Under the pieces are notes generated by a model. The model was not told the DNA's origin. It made no database searches and worked only from the letters and a program-made list of their open reading frames with translations. Shown here piece by piece: positions 11,828 through 24,275 of a DNA stretch of 64,000 nt. The DNA is from Alphaproteobacteria bacterium (GTDB taxonomy: Bacteria > Pseudomonadota > Alphaproteobacteria > Caulobacterales > Hyphomonadaceae): positions 1 through 64,000 of the forward strand of contig JAHJSB010000010.1 in the NCBI GenBank assembly GCA_018830285.1, written 5' to 3'. Position 1 is the stretch's first letter; each line of letters opens with the position of its first letter. The translations under genes and the position numbers were made by a program.

Positions 11828-12877
11828 TTATTGCGTTTCGCGACTGTTCCAGTTGGCGGTCCGGGCCGCGTGCCTGTTTCCGAGCCGTGTGCCGAACGCG
11901 CTCACAAAGGGAAGCATGGCGACAGATGCCATCTTCTGCACTTTATGGCTCGATCCGACGAAGGGAACCTTGCGAACAGCCGGGAGCACGACGTTGTCAT
12001 GGTAACGCCAATTCTTCTGCTTGGCGTATTTGTCGAAATAGGGATCAGCCTGGAGGCCCCATTTCTTGCGAAAATAGCCCAGGCTTTCGCGTTGCCATTT
12101 TGGCGACCAGCGTAGGACAAACAAGGGCAAGTCCATCGCTTCCAAAGGATGGCATCTATCCGGATGGCAGACCGTCGCAATTGACGTTGGTTCCAGCATG
12201 ATCCTGCCGCCCTTGGCCCATACCGATATGCTGAAATCGACGTGATCTTTGGAATATGGCATCTTTTCATCGAAGTCGCCGACGCGCTCAAAAGCGTCGC
12301 GTCGCACCAGCATGCAATGGGTCTCGCAAACCTGCGTTTCGCTTCGCGCCAGGGCGACATCGCCCACCTGCTTGCCTTGATGCAGGAAGTGGCGATCCGC
12401 GAGGCGACGGGCGCCAACGGGTCCGTTGAAGAATCCGTCGAAATCGTTGGTGAAATTGCCACCCCCATGGTGGACTTCGGTGTGCAATGGTGCGCCCTGG
12501 CAAATCAGGGGCTGAACGACTTCAGCGCCCGTCTGTTCGGCGCACTCAATGAGGGGGGCGAGCCAGTTGTCTGCAACGAAGACATCGTTTTCCACGAACA
12601 CCACGTATTTCGTGCCAGCCATGTGATGGCCGCGGTTGCGGGATTGCGCGGGGCTCAGATAGTGGTCGATCCTGTGATACGTGAAACCCTGTTCAGCACA
12701 TATGCGTCGCAGTTCGGACGCAATGCCTTTAGGGCTGCCACCATCGATATAGATGAGGTCATACGGCGCCCGAGTTGCCGATACGATCGCATTTAGGGAT
12801 CGGACAGCCAGGCTGAACCGCTCCCTCGCCGAGACGATGATGGTGGCGTTCGGCGCATTGTCACTGTGATGTCGCAT
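11828..12877 (-). CDS. family 2 glycosyltransferase, tandem paralogue B
   Basis: A 349-residue GT-A glycosyltransferase closely related to the protein encoded directly upstream (12930-14009). Shared stretches include RFSLAV, LSPAQSRNRGH, HQGKQV, the SETQV/TETQV region and FVGSSHKVQK/FVGHSYKVQK. The donor-site acidic motif reads FVENDVFVADNW, so an Asp is kept. The start is placed at MRHHSDNAP because the longer open frame would run back into the upstream gene. The pair is a tandem duplication, and the two transferases may add successive or alternative sugars. The sugar is unknown. Confidence 0.8.
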   Translation of the reverse strand: MRHHSDNAPNATIIVSARERFSLAVRSLNAIVSATRAPYDLIYIDGGSPKGIASELRRICAEQGFTYHRIDHYLSPAQSRNRGHHMAGTKYVVFVENDVFVADNWLAPLIECAEQTGAEVVQPLICQGAPLHTEVHHGGGNFTNDFDGFFNGPVGARRLADRHFLHQGKQVGDVALARSETQVCETHCMLVRRDAFERVGDFDEKMPYSKDHVDFSISVWAKGGRIMLEPTSIATVCHPDRCHPLEAMDLPLFVLRWSPKWQRESLGYFRKKWGLQADPYFDKYAKQKNWRYHDNVVLPAVRKVPFVGSSHKVQKMASVAMLPFVSAFGTRLGNRHAARTANWNSRETQ

Positions 12878-12929: not shown

Positions 12930-14009
12930 TCAGAGCGAGTGGGCCGGGTTCCCGACCCTGCGCTGCGGGGAACGAGCCGTGTCCTCGACAAGCGTCTTTT
13001 CGTGGCTCTTTGCCAGCCAGAGGCCCAAGGCGACGACAATCGGTTCGAGCGCCAACATTACAATTTTCTGGACCTTGTAACTGTGTCCGACGAACGGAAT
13101 CCGACGGGCAAAAGGTTTCAGGATCGCTTCACGGTAGCGCCAGGTGATGATGTCGTTTCGTTTCTGGAAATACGGATCGCCTTCGAGGCCCCACTTCGTC
13201 TTGAAGTGATTGAGGCTGTCCGCTTGCCATTTGGGTGACCAGCGCAGGATGAAGTACGGATAGTCGGACAGCTGAATGGGATTGTGCCGGTTTGGAACAT
13301 AAAACGTCGCGACGGACGAAGGCTCGAGCATGATGCGGCCGCCATTCTTCCAGACGGTCATCGAAAAATTGAGGTGGTCCTTCGTTGACAGCATCGATTC
13401 ATCGAAATCGCCGAAGCGTTCGAACGTATCACGCTTGACCAGAAGGCAGTGGACCTCGGTCACCTGAGTTTCCGTTCGAGTGAGGGGAACGTCGGTGACT
13501 TGTTTGCCCTGGTGCATGTCGACGTCGCAAATGACGTGATCCTCGGGAGCGCCGTGGAAGAAAAGCTCCATGTTTTTCGTGAACGTTCCGCCAGCCTGGT
13601 GAATTTCCGTATGAAAAGGCTTGCCCTGGCACATGAGCGGCTGGATGACTTCAGCGCCAGTCTCTTCGGCGCACCTGATCAGTCTCTCCAGCCAGTTGTC
13701 CGCAACGAACGTACAGCTTTCAACGAAGGCGACGTATTTGGTGTCGCTCAGGCGATGGCCGCGATTTCGTGACTGGGCTGGACTCAGGAGTTCGTCATAA
13801 CGCGCGTAGCGAAAGCCACTCTGGTCGCAGATCCGTTTCAGTTCAGCGGCCACTTTGGGTGGGCTGCCTGCGTCAACGTAAAGCAGCTTGTAGGGGGTGT
13901 GAGTGGCCGCGATGATCTGATTCAGGCTTTCAACCGCAAGGCTGAACCGGTCGCGATGAACCACAATAATCGTGACATCGGGCGCGGTCTTGATCGTTTG
14001 GATTTTCAT
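12930..14009 (-). CDS. family 2 glycosyltransferase, tandem paralogue A
   Basis: A 359-residue GT-A transferase, paralogue of the next gene downstream (11828-12877). The N-terminal VTIIVVHRDRFSLAVESLN strand is typical of GT2. At the position where its twin has FVENDVFVADNW this protein has FVESCTFVADNW, so the acidic residue expected to hold the metal/donor is missing. Activity may therefore be altered or lost, or the metal may be bound differently. The start at 14009 has GGGAG seven bases upstream and avoids overlap with the GT4 gene. Confidence 0.78.
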   Translation of the reverse strand: MKIQTIKTAPDVTIIVVHRDRFSLAVESLNQIIAATHTPYKLLYVDAGSPPKVAAELKRICDQSGFRYARYDELLSPAQSRNRGHRLSDTKYVAFVESCTFVADNWLERLIRCAEETGAEVIQPLMCQGKPFHTEIHQAGGTFTKNMELFFHGAPEDHVICDVDMHQGKQVTDVPLTRTETQVTEVHCLLVKRDTFERFGDFDESMLSTKDHLNFSMTVWKNGGRIMLEPSSVATFYVPNRHNPIQLSDYPYFILRWSPKWQADSLNHFKTKWGLEGDPYFQKRNDIITWRYREAILKPFARRIPFVGHSYKVQKIVMLALEPIVVALGLWLAKSHEKTLVEDTARSPQRRVGNPAHSL

Positions 14010-18357: not shown

Positions 18358-19376
18358 CCCGACGCGGACAGCATGGCCTCGATGCGCAGACGTTTGGCGG
18401 TGTTTCCAACAGAGTGCGGGACCGGTTCCAGGCCCATAGCATGCCGGCAAATGCGCAAGATGAGCGCTGCGGCGACGTCGGGCGGGGCGACCAGCGTGCG
18501 GACGGCGCCCGTGAGGTTTCGGTTTCTCACCATTTCGATCAATTGCATCCACGCCCAGTGCTTGTGGGCGAGGGTCTTATGCTCGCCGATGGCTTTGCGC
18601 TCATCTCGGCTGAGCGTCGGTTGCCGCAAAAATTCGATGTCCCGGTCCAGCACCTGGCGCAGATCGGCTGATGCATATTCCTTGGACAGGGAGTTTGGAT
18701 AATCGATTGAATAGTACCCGCATGGATCGATGAGGCCGAACCGCGCGCCAAAAAGCAGGGCGCGCATGTAGAGATCATAGTCCTCGGCGAGCCGCATTCC
18801 TTCATTGTAGGAGACGTCGTGCCTCGACAGAAATTCTTTGCGCATTAATGGCTTGAGGTATCCGAGTTCCCGCCGGCTGCCCGTGTATCTGTCGATGTTT
18901 TCCCGTGCGAACCGGGCAGCGTCTATCCGAACTAGTCCTATCGGATTGTCGGACCACAGGCGCGTGCCGATCTCGGGGTTGGGTTCGGCATCGACGCGGA
19001 TCAGGTCGTCCGCCACGATGTCGAGGTTCTCCGCCTTTGCGACCTGAAACATGCGCCGCAACCGGTCTGGATGCATATGGTCGTCGCCATCGAGTATCGC
19101 CACCCAGGGGGTCTCGGCGTGCGCTATCGCCCTGTTCCTCGCTGCGGACGGCCCCTGGTTGTGAGGCTGGACCAGCAAGGAAAGACGGGGCTCGCTCTCT
19201 GCCAGCCGTTGGACTATCTCAACCGAGTCATCCTTGGACGCGTCGTCGACGACGATGACCTTGACGGGCTCTGATTGCACCAGCGCGCTTTTGACTGCGG
19301 TTTCAATCGTGGCTGCACTATTATAGCATGGAATAATAACGGTAATTTCAGTCAATTCTGCGGCCTTTGAATCCAT
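18354..19376 (-). CDS. family 2 glycosyltransferase
   Basis: A 340-residue GT-A transferase with ITVIIPCYNSAATIETAV at the N-terminus, VVDDASKDDS for the nucleotide and AILDGDDHMHPDR for metal binding. AEDYDLYMRALL near residue 198 is the catalytic-base region. It is transcribed against the flippase and overlaps its stop, and forms a single-gene unit at the right end of the polysaccharide locus. The 146 bases beyond its start, up to the SDR gene, hold no gene I can see. Confidence 0.88.
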   Translation of the reverse strand: MDSKAAELTEITVIIPCYNSAATIETAVKSALVQSEPVKVIVVDDASKDDSVEIVQRLAESEPRLSLLVQPHNQGPSAARNRAIAHAETPWVAILDGDDHMHPDRLRRMFQVAKAENLDIVADDLIRVDAEPNPEIGTRLWSDNPIGLVRIDAARFARENIDRYTGSRRELGYLKPLMRKEFLSRHDVSYNEGMRLAEDYDLYMRALLFGARFGLIDPCGYYSIDYPNSLSKEYASADLRQVLDRDIEFLRQPTLSRDERKAIGEHKTLAHKHWAWMQLIEMVRNRNLTGAVRTLVAPPDVAAALILRICRHAMGLEPVPHSVGNTAKRLRIEAMLSASG

Positions 19377-19522
19377 GGCGAATGTTCAGTAAAGCGCTCC
19401 AGTAATTGCAAGACTCGCGCCGATGCAGGCAAACGTTTGGCTCAAGCTTGCTCCATTCCGGCAGACGTCCGGGTCTGTTTCGAAATTCGCCTTATAACGC
19501 CTTCCAACCTCTCTGCTTTCTC

Positions 19523-20341
19523 TCAACGGGCCGTCATCGCCCCGTCGACGACGTGTTCCTGTCCGCTGATATAGCTGGAGGCATCGCTCGCGAGGAAGAC
19601 CACGAGATCAGCAACTTCTTCTGGCCTGCCGGGACGGCCCATTGGCGTCGATTGCGAGGCGATTGCATGTGCATCCAGCGCATTGGCTCCTGCATGCGTG
19701 GCCAGCGCTGCCGCTTGATCGGCAGGCATGCTACCGGCCATGCGAGCGATGGACTTCTGCCAGATTGGAGTGTCGATGATCCCCGGATGTACTGAGTTCA
19801 CTCGGATGGGGAATCCCATCTGAGCGCACTCGAGCGCCGCAGCCTTTGTGAACAGGCGGACGCCGCCCTTGCTGGCGCAGTAGGCGCTGACCCCAGGGGC
19901 GCCGCGAAGGCCTGCGACGGAAGACAGGTTAATGATGGAGCCGCCAGTTGTCTGCATCGCTTTCATGGCCGCTCGCGTTCCGAGGAAGACGCTGTCCATG
20001 TTGACCGCCATCTGCTTTTGCCAATCGGCCAGGCTGAATTCGAGAATCGGGCCGCCAATCGCAATGCCCGCATTGTTCACCATCACGGAGGGTGTGCCCA
20101 GTTCAGTCTCACACAGGGACATTATGGCGTCCCAGCGATCTTCATCCGTGACGTCGTGATGGGCCGAGATGGCTTTGCCGCCCTCAGTCTCAATCAGCGC
20201 AACGGTCTGCCTGGCGCCGGCGTCGTCGATATCCGTTACCAGCACCGCGACCCCTTCGCGTGCCAGCCCCACGCAGCAGGCTCGGCCAATGCCACTGGCA
20301 CCACCGGTGACGATAGCCGTCCGTCCCTTCAGGTTTTTCAT
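19523..20341 (-). CDS. short-chain dehydrogenase/reductase (SDR)
   Basis: A 272-residue classical SDR that should oxidise or reduce a hydroxyl/keto group with NAD(P). TGGASGIGRA binds the cofactor, an Asp in VTDIDDAG suggests NAD preference, NNAG is kept, and the catalytic set is Ser in LSSVAG with YCASK. The C-terminus (GQEHVVDGAMTAR) is nearly repeated in the broken SDR copy at 21590-21958. GGGAGGAAG sits before the start. It is divergent from a dead rpsD fragment, mirroring the arrangement of the pseudogene and the real rpsD. The substrate is unknown. Confidence 0.88.
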   Translation of the reverse strand: MKNLKGRTAIVTGGASGIGRACCVGLAREGVAVLVTDIDDAGARQTVALIETEGGKAISAHHDVTDEDRWDAIMSLCETELGTPSVMVNNAGIAIGGPILEFSLADWQKQMAVNMDSVFLGTRAAMKAMQTTGGSIINLSSVAGLRGAPGVSAYCASKGGVRLFTKAAALECAQMGFPIRVNSVHPGIIDTPIWQKSIARMAGSMPADQAAALATHAGANALDAHAIASQSTPMGRPGRPEEVADLVVFLASDASSYISGQEHVVDGAMTAR

Positions 20342-20382
20342 TGTCTTCCTCCCAACGGTCTTTGCTTGTTTTGTACCGCAAC

Positions 20383-20606
20383 AGTAGCAGGCGTATGGCT
20401 CGGCACGCCAGTCAATTTGGTTGTTTTTCCCGCCGCTTATCTAAGGGTGGTGCGCAGCCGCCTATGGCGAATTAGCGATATCCACAGGCCCGCGTCAAAA
20501 TGAGGTACGACCATGTCACGTCGCTATAGTGTGAAGTACAAGATCTACCGCCGGGTCCGAGACAATATTTGGGCCGTTCCAACGTCCTCCTTCAACAAAC
20601 GCGGGA
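20383..20606 (+). repeat. degenerate direct repeat A (rpsD promoter and 5' end)
   Basis: This segment matches 21985-22220 over the upstream region and the first 30 or so codons of rpsD. Shared blocks include GTCAATTTGGT, CCCGCCGCTTATCTA, GGCCCGCGTC, AAATGAGGTAC and the ATGTCACGTCGC start. Differences are scattered through both coding and non-coding parts, as expected of an old copy without selection. The possible -35 element TTGACG of the intact copy has become TCGGCA here, so promoter loss is plausible. Confidence 0.85.
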
Positions 20607-20611
20607 ACTGA
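20513..20611 (+). pseudogene. rpsD: truncated duplicate of rpsD (30S ribosomal protein S4)
   Basis: A 32-codon reading frame starting MSRRYSVKYKIYRRVRDN, against [18 protein letters not shown] in the intact rpsD at 22126. The match runs on through IW and FNKR and then stops at a TGA; the rest of S4 (about 170 residues) is missing. The AATGAGGTAC upstream is the same as in the true gene, where it probably includes the ribosome binding site. The whole 341-base gap 20342-20682 otherwise holds nothing recognisable. It is inferred to be a dead product of a segmental duplication. Confidence 0.88.
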
Positions 20612-20682
20612 CAGTTTCGTTGGGACGAGGCGGGCGCACCGGATGCATCTGCTGCGCGTTCGAGCAAAATCGACGTAGCGGC

Positions 20683-21588
20683 TCAGGCCGCCAGCGACGT
20701 TTTTTGCCCGCCTAGGTGCCACGCAACCGGATCTGACTGGTAATGTAGAGGTGAGAGTGTTGAAATCTCGATACCCGCGTCACGAAACAGATCAGCGATT
20801 GTGTCCATGCCACTTTGATCTTGCGCCGCCAGCACCATTGCTTCGATACGCGCCGCATAAAGCGCGATCTCTGCAGATAGTTTCCCGGTGTTCTCGACCA
20901 GGTAGGCAGGCTCGAAGCGTTTCCAATTGTCGAGCAATTCACGAGAGAAGGAAAGCGCCCACGAAGTTGTTTCATCCTGTTCGCGAGCGTTGCGAAGGCG
21001 CTGCCAGGCTGCTTTGGCAGACATCTCTGTGGCAGAGGCGTCGACGCCGTCTTTATGAGCAAGTGCAAGGTTTCTCATCGCGATGAGTATTCCATCGTTT
21101 GCATTGACTTCCATCAACCGCTGGACGCGCCGTTTTGCGTCCGCGATCGCTGGGCCGCTTGAGTTGTGAATGATGAGGCACAGGTGCCCTGAGGGTTTGA
21201 GGACCCGAGCTGCCTCTGCCGAGGCTTGCGCTACATCAGCGTATTCAAAGCCAAACTGAGACACTACCGCATCAAAAGTCGCAGCTTCAAAAGGCAGGGA
21301 TTCCAGGTTGGTATTAGGATGAAGTTGAACTCCCGGCAGGCGTGGCAAGCTGTTCGCAAAGTCGACACCGTCGATGCGCAGCGAAGGGCTTGAGGCCCGA
21401 ATCTGCCGCGCAACGGTGCCTGCGCCGCAGGCCAGATCGATCACACGTTCGCCAGGACCGAGGCTGCGTGCAAACTTTAGCCATGTTGAAGGGAACGCCA
21501 CCGGCGTTTGCCCCATAAAGCAGCTTTCGGTCATGCCGCCCGCCCAGTAACGGGTCCATGCTTCAGATTGTGCTGGTACTGTCCTCAT
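20683..21588 (-). CDS. class I SAM-dependent methyltransferase
   Basis: A 301-residue methyltransferase with the Rossmann-like fold. The SAM-binding glycine loop is VIDLACGAGTVARQI near residue 50, followed by VDFANSLPRL (motif II), FDAVVSQFGFEYA (motif post-II/III) and VLKPSGHLCLII. No substrate-specific domain stands out. It lies between the two copies of the SDR/rpsD duplication and starts one base after the stop of the SDR pseudogene, on the same strand. It could have been inserted between the copies or belonged to the duplicated unit. Confidence 0.8.
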   Translation of the reverse strand: MRTVPAQSEAWTRYWAGGMTESCFMGQTPVAFPSTWLKFARSLGPGERVIDLACGAGTVARQIRASSPSLRIDGVDFANSLPRLPGVQLHPNTNLESLPFEAATFDAVVSQFGFEYADVAQASAEAARVLKPSGHLCLIIHNSSGPAIADAKRRVQRLMEVNANDGILIAMRNLALAHKDGVDASATEMSAKAAWQRLRNAREQDETTSWALSFSRELLDNWKRFEPAYLVENTGKLSAEIALYAARIEAMVLAAQDQSGMDTIADLFRDAGIEISTLSPLHYQSDPVAWHLGGQKTSLAA

Positions 21589-21589
21589 A

Positions 21590-21958
21590 CTAGCGCGCAG
21601 TCATTGCCCCATCGATACAGTGCTCCTGTCCGATGAGGTAACTGAAGGCAAGTGATGCGGGGGACACGATCAATTTGACGACCTCCTCTGGGCTGCCAGC
21701 GCGGCCTATGAGGGATGGCTGTGCGCCAATGGAGTCAACGTCCATCTTGTTTGCGTCAGAAGAAAAGGCCAGCTCTTGCGTCATTGTGTCCATCTTGGGC
21801 GGGACAGATTTCTGCCAGATCGGTGGATCGATGATGCCGGGGTGAACCACGTTCTCGCGAAGATTGAGCCCCTTTGGTGGACACGCGATAGCCGCTGCTC
21901 GTCCTGCTCTGCTACCCGCGCCAGTCACCCTTGCCGTTTTGCCGTAGATTTGTCCCAT
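21590..21958 (-). pseudogene. internally deleted SDR pseudogene
   Basis: A 122-codon frame that fuses the first 25 or so residues of an SDR (GKTARVTGAGSRAGRAAAIA) directly to its C-terminal part (NVVHPGIIDPPIWQKS ... GQEHCIDGAMTAR). The matching intact gene at 19523-20341 has NSVHPGIIDTPIWQKS and GQEHVVDGAMTAR. About 150 residues are gone, including NNAG, the catalytic Ser and YxxxK, and the cofactor loop is altered, so no SDR activity is expected. The frame is still open, so a short protein could be made. It is divergent from rpsD, as the intact copy is from the rpsD fragment. Confidence 0.85.
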
Positions 21959-21984
21959 TCACCATCCTTCTGAGTTCGCCTGTC

Positions 21985-22125
21985 TGTAGCAGCGTTTCGG
22001 CTTGACGCACCAGTCAATTTGGTGTTTTACCCGCCGCTTATCTACGGGCTGGTGCGGAGCCGCCGTTGAGATCGTGGGTGCGAATACGCGCCGCCCACCG
22101 GCCCGCGTCGAAATGAGGTACTACC
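21985..22125 (+). promoter_or_regulatory. rpsD upstream region, duplicated at 20383-20512
   Basis: Non-coding leader of rpsD. A possible promoter is TTGACG at 22002-22007 and TTTTAC at 22025-22030, 17 bases apart; the -10 match is poor. The block GTCAATTTGGT ... CCCGCCGCTTATCTA is kept in the duplicate copy. Since the copy is decaying, shared blocks may simply be remnants rather than conserved sites. Confidence 0.45.
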
Positions 22126-22743
22126 ATGTCACGTCGCCACAGCGCGAAGTACAAGATCGACCGTCGGGTCGGCGAAAATATTTGGGGACGTCCCAAATCC
22201 CCCGTCAACAAGCGCAACTACAAGCCCGGACAGCACGGCCAGAACCGCCGTAGCAAAGTCTCGGACTTCGGTATGCAGCTCATGGCGAAGCAAAAGCTCA
22301 AAGGCTACTACGGCGACATCACGGAGAAGCAGTTCTCCCGCGTGTACGTTGAAGCCAGCCGCATGAAGGGCAACGCCGCAGAAAACCTGATCGGCCTGCT
22401 GGAATCGCGCCTTGAAGCCTTCGTGTATCGTGCGAAATTCGTACCCACGATCTTTGCGGCCCGCCAGTTCGTGAATCACGGCCACGTCACGGTCAATGGT
22501 CGTCGCTGCAATATCGGTTCAGCTCGCCTGAAGCCAGGTGATGTCGTGCAAATTCGTGAAAAGTCGCGCAATATCGCACTGGTTCTCGAAGCCCTTGGCA
22601 GCCCCGAGCGCGATCTTCCGGAATATGTGGATGTCGATCCCAAAGCGATGTCGGCAACCTATGTCCGTGTGCCTGGACTGGCCGACGTGCCATATCCGGT
22701 TCAGATGGAACCAGCGCAAGTCGTCGAATTCTATTCGTCGTAA
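22126..22743 (+). CDS. rpsD: 30S ribosomal protein S4
   Basis: A 205-residue primary 16S rRNA-binding protein that nucleates assembly of the small subunit 5' domain and helps decoding accuracy. The N-terminus [20 protein letters not shown] and the S4 RNA-binding domain around residues 95-155 ([11 protein letters not shown] ... [16 protein letters not shown]) are typical. Length matches the alphaproteobacterial S4. It is monocistronic, followed by a strong terminator hairpin at 22770. Part of its 5' end has a dead copy at 20513. Confidence 0.97.
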
Positions 22744-22769
22744 GAGACCTGTTTTTCTTGAAGTTTTGA

Positions 22770-22798
22770 AAAGGCCGCGCCAGACTGGTGCGGCCTTT
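22770..22798 (+). terminator. rho-independent terminator after rpsD
   Basis: AAAGGCCGC pairs with GCGGCCTTT, with a further CCA/TGG pairing inside the loop, and TTTCTCG follows. It lies 27 bases after the rpsD stop. Confidence 0.85.
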
Positions 22799-22818
22799 CT
22801 CGTTCCGGAGACCATTCC

Positions 22819-23646
22819 ATGCCCATACCCAGCATCGCCGCGACCCGACGGGCGCTCGTCGCCACACCGGGCAGGCCATTTGACCTCGCCTCGCGGGATT
22901 CCGGGGATCGATCATTGTTCGACGACAAGGAAGCAGCCAAAACCAGCCTCAAGAAAGACGCGGCCGTCATCAACGAGTTGAAAGACAGGCTGTACGCCGA
23001 AAAGAAGCGGTCCCTGCTGGTCGTCCTGCAAGGCATGGATACGTCAGGGAAGTCCGGAACGATCAAAGGCGTGTTTTCCGATACGACGCCCCTCGGCATG
23101 GAAGTGAAGGCGTTTAAGGCGCCCAGCTCCAACGAATTGGCGCGTGACTATCTGTGGCGCGTTCACAATGCCGTTCCGGCCAAGGGGCGGATCGGCATTT
23201 TTGATCGATCGCATTATGAGGATGTGCTTGTGGTTAAGGTGCGCGGTTTTGCACCGGCCGAGACAGTCGAGCAGCGCTACGGGCAGATCAACGCGTTCGA
23301 AAAGCACCTCGCAGAAAACGACGTGACCATTGTCAAATGCATGCTCAATGTTGGCCATGAGGAGCAGGGGGTCCGCCTCGCCGAACGGCTGGAGGAGCCG
23401 CACAAGCTTTGGAAGTTCAACCCGGCAGATCTAGAGGACCGCAAGCTGTGGCCCGAATTCATGTCGGCATACGAAACAGCCATCGCACGTTGCTCGACCC
23501 GACATGCGCCATGGTATGTCATTCCGGCGGACAGTCGTACGCGGCGAAATGCCATGATTGCCCGGTTGGTGCGCGGCGCGCTTGAGGACATGAAGCTTGA
23601 ATGGCCCGGCTCGAAATACAAGCCGGGCGAATTCAGTATCGGCTAG
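22819..23646 (+). CDS. ppk2: PPK2-family polyphosphate:nucleotide phosphotransferase
   Basis: A 275-residue polyphosphate kinase 2, which transfers phosphate between polyphosphate and nucleotides. Walker A is QGMDTSGKSGTIKG near residue 76; the lid and Walker B region shows FDRSHYEDVLVVKV near residue 130. A single domain of this length fits classes I and III of the family; which nucleotide is preferred cannot be read off. GGAGA precedes the start. It is convergent with a DUF2807 gene and overlaps its stop by four bases. Confidence 0.9.
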   Translation: MPIPSIAATRRALVATPGRPFDLASRDSGDRSLFDDKEAAKTSLKKDAAVINELKDRLYAEKKRSLLVVLQGMDTSGKSGTIKGVFSDTTPLGMEVKAFKAPSSNELARDYLWRVHNAVPAKGRIGIFDRSHYEDVLVVKVRGFAPAETVEQRYGQINAFEKHLAENDVTIVKCMLNVGHEEQGVRLAERLEEPHKLWKFNPADLEDRKLWPEFMSAYETAIARCSTRHAPWYVIPADSRTRRNAMIARLVRGALEDMKLEWPGSKYKPGEFSIG

Positions 23647-24275
23647 TGGAAGGTCGTCGAGCCGCCGGAAACGGAGTGATTGGCCTCGCGGTCGGCTGGA
23701 TCACCATAGATGTCGACGCTTCCGCCGCTCGATGTATGGCTCTTGGCCTCTGCTGATGCGTAGGCTCTGGCAGAGCCTCCGCTGGACGCATTGGCGGCGA
23801 CTTTCTGGCAGACTACGTCCTTCGCAGATGCAGAGCCGCCCGAATTGGCCACGATTTTCAGCGAGCCGCACTTGCCTTCGGCCTTGATGCTGGCACCGCT
23901 GGAGGCGTCGAGAACGAGGATGTCGGAATCAATGCCGGTTGCACGGATGCTCGACCCGGAACTGGCCTCTATCTCTTCAAGATGCGGCGACGTCACGCGC
24001 ACCTTGGCCCTGACCTTGTCTCTCCATCCAGATGTTGCCTTGCGCGCGATATAGAGCCGGGATCCGTCCTGGCGCAGCTTCATGTCGTCAGGGCCACCCT
24101 GTTTGAAATCGATGATGACCGTATAGTCCGGCCCGGCTTCATAGGTGACATCGACGCCTGCCGAGATGTCGAGTTCGTCAAAACCGGTGAAGTCGTAGGT
24201 CTTCGTGCTGTCCGCGAGAACGGCGCCGGGGGCGAGGAGGGTGAGGCAGAGGGCTGCCAGTAGGGGCTTTAGCAT
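23643..24275 (-). CDS. exported DUF2807 (GIN-domain) protein
   Basis: A 210-residue secreted protein with a signal peptide (LLAALCLTLLAPGAVLA, cleavage near residue 22). The rest fits DUF2807, a putative adhesin/beta-solenoid domain: FDELDISAGVDVTYEAGPDY, then repeated strands built on SSGASI/SSGGSA every 18-20 residues. It probably forms a right-handed beta-helix in the periplasm or on the surface. The next gene upstream (24296) encodes a longer protein of the same family, 20 bases away on the same strand. Function is not known for the family. Confidence 0.82.
   Translation of the reverse strand: MLKPLLAALCLTLLAPGAVLADSTKTYDFTGFDELDISAGVDVTYEAGPDYTVIIDFKQGGPDDMKLRQDGSRLYIARKATSGWRDKVRAKVRVTSPHLEEIEASSGSSIRATGIDSDILVLDASSGASIKAEGKCGSLKIVANSGGSASAKDVVCQKVAANASSGGSARAYASAEAKSHTSSGGSVDIYGDPADREANHSVSGGSTTFH

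Follow-up and report, generated by a model that had tools for sequence, protein, structure and literature searches.

Structured leaders of the mRNA for ribosomal protein S4 are known from Bacillus subtilis, where one precedes rpsD, and from Escherichia coli, where it is the pseudoknot of the alpha operon; the same source describes rpsD as located distantly in alphaproteobacterial species and leaves the reason open (PMC10931766). S4 r-leader candidates were reported for Bacteroidia, Clostridia, Flavobacteria, and Fusobacteriales, together with mention of an earlier Firmicutes S4 leader, and Table 1 of that report contains no S4 leader for Alphaproteobacteria (PMC7247131). In the immunity-gene arrays of Vibrio cholerae, old gene copies are displaced by homology-facilitated illegitimate recombination and kept as orphans (PMC5361080). 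Here, we describe two copies of the border between a short-chain dehydrogenase/reductase (SDR) gene and rpsD, together with a candidate S4 leader RNA, in a stretch of 64,000 nucleotides (the window; positions 1 to 64,000 of contig JAHJSB010000010.1, assembly GCA_018830285.1) belonging to a 3.56-Mb genome of the genus Hyphomonas.

The host is a marine bacterium. The window harbors two blocks, in each of which an SDR gene on the minus strand faces rpsD on the plus strand, and the two rpsD starts lie 1613 bp apart. The gene order is GT18 (minus), SDR (minus), rpsD remnant (plus), methyltransferase (minus), truncated SDR (minus), rpsD (plus), and PPK2 (plus); GT18 and PPK2, as well as wzx used below, are presumptive names that do not come from a family search. 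An earlier note on this DNA, made from the letters alone, had described the two blocks as lying about 1.6 kb apart, the left one with an intact SDR gene and a 32-codon rpsD remnant with its upstream region, the right one with an intact rpsD and an SDR gene lacking about 150 internal residues, so that each block had kept the gene which the other had lost, with a methyltransferase gene between them. This layout was confirmed in all parts, and the reciprocity was found to extend within the intergenic region. The features are as follows.

19523 to 20341, minus strand: intact SDR oxidoreductase gene of the left block, 272 aa (open reading frame; Pfam adh_short and adh_short_C2; closest to Hyphomonas sp. 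BRH_c22, 81-82%)
20342 to 20512, no strand: left intergenic copy, preserved towards the SDR gene and decayed towards rpsD, with an 11-nt deletion in the leader hairpin (alignment and column counts)
20443 to 20497, plus strand: ruined copy of the rpsD leader RNA (R1, 14.6 bits, E 0.7, with broken pairs; R2, 15.1 bits, E 0.48)
20513 to 20611, plus strand: rpsD 5' remnant, a pseudogene of 32 codons, ATG at 20513, TGA at 20609-20611, 90 nt alignable to rpsD (20513-20602) (open reading frame, self-comparison, identity test)
20612 to 20682, no strand: spacer between the rpsD remnant and the methyltransferase 3' end, where the rpsD similarity is already over (self-comparison)
20683 to 21588, minus strand: gene of an S-adenosylmethionine-dependent methyltransferase, 301 aa, not found at the same place in relatives (Methyltransf_11 and relatives' loci)
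21590 to 21958, minus strand: truncated SDR gene, 122 aa, with an open frame after the loss of about 150 internal residues, stop one base before the methyltransferase ATG (open reading frame, Pfam)
21959 to 22125, no strand: right intergenic copy, conserved towards rpsD and diverged towards the SDR gene (alignment and column counts)
22044 to 22110, plus strand: structured rpsD leader RNA, 18-pair irregular hairpin (covariation, covariance-model matches)
22126 to 22743, plus strand: intact rpsD, ribosomal protein S4, 205 aa (NF003717, E 9e-75)
22819 to 23646, plus strand: PPK2-type kinase gene, so named by presumption (right neighbor of rpsD in 34 of 35 relatives' loci)

An alignment of the blocks, which the earlier note had suggested, was obtained by comparing the window with itself. 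The intergenic region together with the first 90 nt of rpsD showed 78% identity over 233 columns (E 3e-47), and the SDR parts matched in short pieces only (75% over 57 and 78% over 41); the two copies are homologous and have the same order and orientation. The left SDR protein matched adh_short with E 3e-55, as compared to E 3e-4 and 20.9 bits for the right one, which is below the Pfam cut-off of 27; with 122 instead of 272 residues, its Rossmann core is incomplete. It retains approximately the first 24 residues (placed by hand) and the C-terminal part, and about 150 residues between them are gone.

The left rpsD piece reads MSRRYSVKYKIYRRVRDNIWAVPTSSFNKR. Its 30 alignable codons showed 66.7% protein and 78.9% DNA identity to the intact gene, as compared to 100% protein and 90-93% DNA identity over the same codons among the intact rpsD copies compared (window, BRH_c22, and H. 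johnsonii; n = 3); the 32-codon frame is therefore a pseudogene under relaxed protein constraint. Decay of the intergenic region was determined as the number of columns differing from the consensus of five relatives, BRH_c22 included. On the SDR side, 20 of 65 columns differed in the left copy and 39 of 64 in the right copy; on the rpsD side, the counts were 41 of 114 and 9 of 114, respectively. The values for the SDR side and the rpsD side were 17/64 and 10/115 in BRH_c22 and 27/64 and 18/115 in H. johnsonii. For the contrast between left and right, a Fisher test gave P = 4e-7, or 2e-5 when the region was split at the leader start; its columns are not independent, and gaps including the 11-nt deletion were counted per column. 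Each intergenic copy is preserved in the half used by its surviving gene.

Comparing what each block had kept or lost led to the leader RNA, a structured element of 67 nt at positions 22044-22110 before the intact rpsD. It forms an irregular hairpin of 18 pairs with a conserved one-sided bulge of 11 nt (CCGTTGAGATC in the window). Over the genus, 31 of its 67 positions were invariant among 29 distinct sequences, the alignment of which was made without structure; the structure is the RNAalifold consensus of a longer alignment. In these 29 sequences, 98.7% of the cells were paired and 30 double-change cells were counted as compared to 7.5 in shuffles. None of 500 shuffles was as high for cells paired, double-change cells, or covariation score; double changes occurred in six pairs, a value reached by 7 of 500 shuffles, and further pair types were not unusually numerous (136 of 500). 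Among 94 matches (89 distinct), 94.1% of the cells pair and sliding the partner destroys the pairing. Here, 324 double-change cells were found versus 92 in shuffles (0 of 500 as high), with double changes in 14 of the 18 pairs (4 of 500). It is nearly certain that the leader is real as a structured element.

The genus covariance model scored 83.6 bits at the intact rpsD of the window versus 14.6 bits at the remnant. It matched 104 of 200 genomes of the order (Caulobacterales, to which Hyphomonas belongs); the model of the order matched 159 of 200, with one match per genome among those listed. The 107 loci studied comprise all 104 order matches and three from the class, and an S4 gene was present in 106. 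Of these loci, 94 were aligned and measured; in 93 of them, the match stops 11-21 nt (median 16) upstream of the rpsD start, on the same strand. One match (locus L304, genome G868, family f3) has no S4 gene beside it and is the sole f3 match among those listed. The 41 genomes missed by the order model include 20 named ones, all of family f3; the other 21 were not named. Among 289 genomes of the class, the genus model matched 6 at E 0.001; the order model matched 8 at E 0.01, namely four of the same order, three of one further family (f8), and genome G243. The latter match (E 0.007) has no convincing S4 gene adjoining and looks false.

The fixed place 11-21 nt before rpsD resembles that of leaders which bind the protein encoded downstream and thus argues for a role as S4 sensor. 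The leader is presumably transcribed and, by analogy with S4 leaders of other phyla, would bind S4 and repress translation of rpsD when S4 is in excess; this would provide rpsD with its own feedback control where it lies outside the alpha operon. We regard autoregulation of S4 by the leader as probable. Likewise, we consider it likely that the 67-nt element is a new S4-binding leader which occurs over most of the order and in one further family and serves the autogenous control of a detached rpsD. The left copy would then represent a natural loss-of-function variant, the element of which decayed when it no longer served any rpsD. The leader was preserved only beside the intact rpsD.

Several observations weigh against this interpretation. 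The alignment of the 94 matches was fitted to the model, and its counts therefore lean towards structure. Among three leader copies folded singly, only one (L064) takes the covarying fold; those of the window and of BRH_c22 prefer another helix, which covariation does not back, and their stability does not exceed that of shuffles (z -0.65 and -0.68). Few class genomes outside the order match the leader models, which speaks against a wide spread. Another role for the structured element, as an mRNA-stability hairpin or as a site for a different protein, appears unlikely: S4 enters as ligand by analogy and the likeness to the 16S 530 loop described below is not significant, but the spacing before rpsD is fixed in 93 of the 94 measured cases.

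Two further candidates were tried and rejected. An alternative outer helix (columns 2-11 with 59-68), favored by folding the window copy alone, was paired in 89.3% but had no double changes, and shuffles equaled it. For a mimicry of the 16S 530 loop by the GUGC..AGCCGC stretch of the leader, shuffled sequences matched in 36% of 2000 draws (P = 0.36). Rfam 15 gave no match in positions 19300-23700 of the window up to E 1; in nine relatives, up to E 0.1, it gave only a weak match to the small RNA family BjrC68 (23 bits versus a cut-off of 39) away from the leader. In the titles and abstract beginnings covered by searches of the leader literature, no alphaproteobacterial S4 leader is named; this literature and Rfam are the basis for considering the leader new.

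To place the two blocks, relatives were compared. rpsD was found in 58 of 61 genomes searched, and a second rpsD piece solely in the genome of the window (E 6e-16); hence, the two blocks are not a matter of chance. Within the genus, rpsD is present in all but one of the 36 other genomes, and all 35 loci were compared. A single SDR gene facing rpsD was present in 34 of the 34 loci that reach the SDR gene, which is the single-copy arrangement that the earlier note had suggested looking for in close relatives; the remaining locus (L061) starts 67 bases before rpsD and was left out of this count. The PPK2 gene follows rpsD in 34 of 35 loci, and in the other one (L066) the contig ends inside rpsD. 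No second SDR piece beside rpsD was detected in the relatives' loci at the cut-offs used, and the methyltransferase had no match in the 35 loci (tblastn, E ≤ 1e-4), four of which contain less than 7 kb upstream. The nearest named relatives of the left SDR obtained by similarity search were mostly Hyphomonas. Homologues of GT18 and wzx adjoin SDR-rpsD in the metagenome-assembled genome G029, H. chukchiensis, H. johnsonii, BRH_c22, and H. oceanitis and were not found in the remaining relatives' loci examined. These five are the nearest relatives of the window in the trees, and all are single-copy. The polysaccharide border is therefore older than the duplication and not its product, and the proposal linking the duplication to an arrival of the polysaccharide locus is not supported.

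A second SDR copy in BRH_c22 (L088) was considered as a shared duplication and rejected, the contig matching the native locus with 91% and 94% over two stretches. BRH_c22 thereby has two versions of the GT18-SDR region on separate contigs (L088 and L089), and its assembly probably mixes strains. Upstream of rpsD in G029 (locus L032), two wzx-like genes are located within 7 kb, 48% and 72% identical to that of the window; perhaps, they represent another duplication at the same polysaccharide border. Three records labelled Acidobacteria or Sulfopaludibacter (L096, L103, and L104) contain Hyphomonas-like SDR genes with 65-66% identity and are probably mislabelled bins.

The origin of the blocks was analyzed by trees (branch support in brackets). 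A combined tree of parE, gyrB, and rimO grouped the window with BRH_c22 and H. johnsonii (94/99), with the chukchiensis/oceanitis group adjacent; trees of single genes wavered, rimO pointing to BRH_c22 (90/93) and parE (59/56) and gyrB (55/47) to H. johnsonii. The rpsD-PPK2 tree joined the window to BRH_c22 (86/81). The left intergenic region with its rpsD piece also joined BRH_c22 (99/88), as these trees do, so the left block fits vertical descent; the left SDR fell into the same clade (99/95). The right intergenic region with its rpsD piece was placed in the same seven-row clade, outside the pair of the left copy and BRH_c22. By DNA identity, the right SDR is nearest to those of L-53-1-40 and atlantica (65.6 and 64.8%), with 57% to the left SDR.

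We lean slightly towards an inserted copy of the SDR-rpsD border of a second lineage. A second border, with the methyltransferase on its SDR side, would have joined into the native locus of the strain's ancestor, and the native rpsD would have been broken after about codon 30, its function being taken over by the complete rpsD to the right. The best-fitting form would be a recombination anchored by SDR-rpsD homology at one end with an illegitimate join at the other; homology-facilitated illegitimate recombination has reportedly been studied in E. coli. Reciprocal loss followed, the left block keeping the SDR gene and the SDR side of the intergenic region, the right block rpsD and the rpsD side; each block presumably lost what the other supplied because a cell requires a single S4 and no more than one of these SDRs. 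There is moderate evidence for an origin of the right block in another lineage, within or close to the native clade, with the methyltransferase carried along.

In the earlier note, the locus had been read as a decayed segmental duplication; the homologous blocks and their reciprocal loss stand, and a plain local duplication has become doubtful. Such an event would have copied the segment between the SDR 3' end and rpsD codon 30 in place, within the lineage of the window, with the methyltransferase inserted at or carried into the junction and reciprocal decay thereafter. It is possible, though clearly less probable than an insertion. In its favor, the locus is built like a tandem duplication truncated at one end, 18 sites are common to left and right against BRH_c22, and the long branch of the decayed copy (1.42) can misplace it. 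Approximately unbiased (AU) tests rejected the two SDRs of the window as sisters on whole codons (DNA, 36 rows, P = 0.0001; SDR alone with codon positions unlinked, P = 0.02) and narrowly on protein (P = 0.048), and rejected uniting the blocks when SDR, intergenic region, and rpsD piece were taken together with codon positions unlinked (P = 0.035), but third codon positions alone did not (P = 0.41). The separate, unrelated SDR clades which the earlier note had named as speaking against a duplication were thus found in part. For the intergenic region, sisterhood was borderline (P = 0.064 in one test and 0.026 in another; 0.061 with the rpsD codons). A tandem duplication would also require a separate arrival of the methyltransferase and leaves the left intergenic region joining BRH_c22 instead of the right copy. 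A position of the right SDR inside the native clade was rejected on DNA (P = 0.012) and with unlinked codon positions (P = 0.015). Most tests put the right SDR outside the native clade and disfavor a recent self-duplication; some do not decide.

The insertion from a second lineage has to be weighed against further results. A place of the right SDR inside the native clade is not rejected by protein (P = 0.19), third positions (0.30), or all parts (0.67), and in the SDR tree a group of BRH_c22 and three others excludes the left copy, though weakly supported (82/63). Shared differences are balanced in number, with 19 sites uniting left and BRH_c22 against right as compared to the 18 given above. 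A scan along rpsD-PPK2 showed no clear breakpoint or switch of nearest relative; the rpsD similarity of the left block stops at codon 30, and no breakpoint was located on the rpsD side. As the right intergenic region and rpsD-PPK2 lie in the clade of the left block, the donor, if any, is close, or only the SDR gene and the methyltransferase are foreign. An old paralogy, in which the duplication would be older than the divergence of the johnsonii/BRH_c22/oceanitis clade and one block would have been lost in all other lineages, would fit the right copy branching at the base of, or just outside, this clade. It would need several independent clean losses, the relatives having no second rpsD piece and no second SDR piece beside rpsD at the cut-offs used, and we consider it improbable. 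Least probable is an assembly artefact in which contigs of two strains were joined in a mixed assembly. In the genome of the window, two contigs (C47 and C59) end in gyrB, the two copies sharing 93% identity over 1114 nt, and no rpoB was detected, as in 2 of 15 further genomes searched, so this assembly may itself be mixed, broken, or incomplete; however, the rpsD piece and the right SDR are both decayed, which misjoined functional alleles would not be.

The methyltransferase between the blocks (Methyltransf_11, E 3e-12) is the part that looks foreign. Its best relative within the genus is 34% identical, and the nearest homologues overall are 28-35% identical. Among 385 class genomes, two had a match at E 1e-20 or better, and among 398 phylum genomes, four had one at E 1e-25 or better, the genome of the window counted in both. 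Plasmids yielded 35 matching records, with 32% identity or less among the 10 matches listed; phages gave none at E 1e-5. A donor was not found among the genus, class, and phylum genomes, plasmids, and phages searched. Its GC content at third codon positions is 57%, the lowest of the twelve full genes listed; since two glycosyltransferase genes to the left have 60-61%, composition is weak evidence of foreignness.

On the minus strand at 21586-21592, the sequence TAG-T-ATG contains the stop of the truncated SDR frame, one base, and the start of the methyltransferase. Translation of the methyltransferase could be coupled to that of the open truncated frame, which would then act as its leader frame. 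Random decay leaves such a frame without a stop in 5-11% of simulations, and its protein identity to the nearest relative is 57% as compared to 39% expected under neutral decay, an excess that may reflect time spent as a functional gene. As evidence for selection keeping the frame open, the stop-codon simulations and the protein identity are not decisive. Directly after rpsD, a 29-base inverted repeat (22770-22798) is probably the rpsD terminator. Elsewhere in the window, positions 12029-12658 and 13161-13787 are 66% identical over 634 columns and probably represent tandem glycosyltransferase paralogues.

The duplication alone is an ordinary trace of genome change, yet its complementary decay is tidy and reaches into the shared intergenic region. 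A literature search for comparable duplications found no paper. In the immunity-gene arrays of V. cholerae, incoming DNA is anchored by a conserved stretch and joined without homology at its other end, leaving the old copy as an orphan beside the new one, which resembles the history proposed here; in contrast, an SDR-rpsD border that includes an essential gene would serve as anchor here, no effectors are involved, and the mechanism is deduced from one decayed locus (PMC5361080). Like the S4 leaders of B. subtilis and E. coli, the element described here is a structured 5' leader of the S4 mRNA, and rpsD is separate from the alpha operon both in B. subtilis and in alphaproteobacteria (PMC10931766). 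It differs from both in being an irregular hairpin with an 11-nt bulge, in belonging to another bacterial class, and in lacking an Rfam 15 match, and its binding of S4 is putative. With the S4 r-leader motifs, it shares discovery by covariation upstream of rpsD or its operon and a restriction to certain lineages; those motifs differ from the present leader in preceding operons with rpoA and rplQ (PMC7247131). Because the leader has a defined structure, keeps a fixed distance from rpsD, and was matched in 159 of the 200 genomes sampled from the order, S4 balance is directly testable there. If the proposed role holds true, Alphaproteobacteria, for which the table of r-leaders lists no S4 leader, would gain one (PMC7247131).

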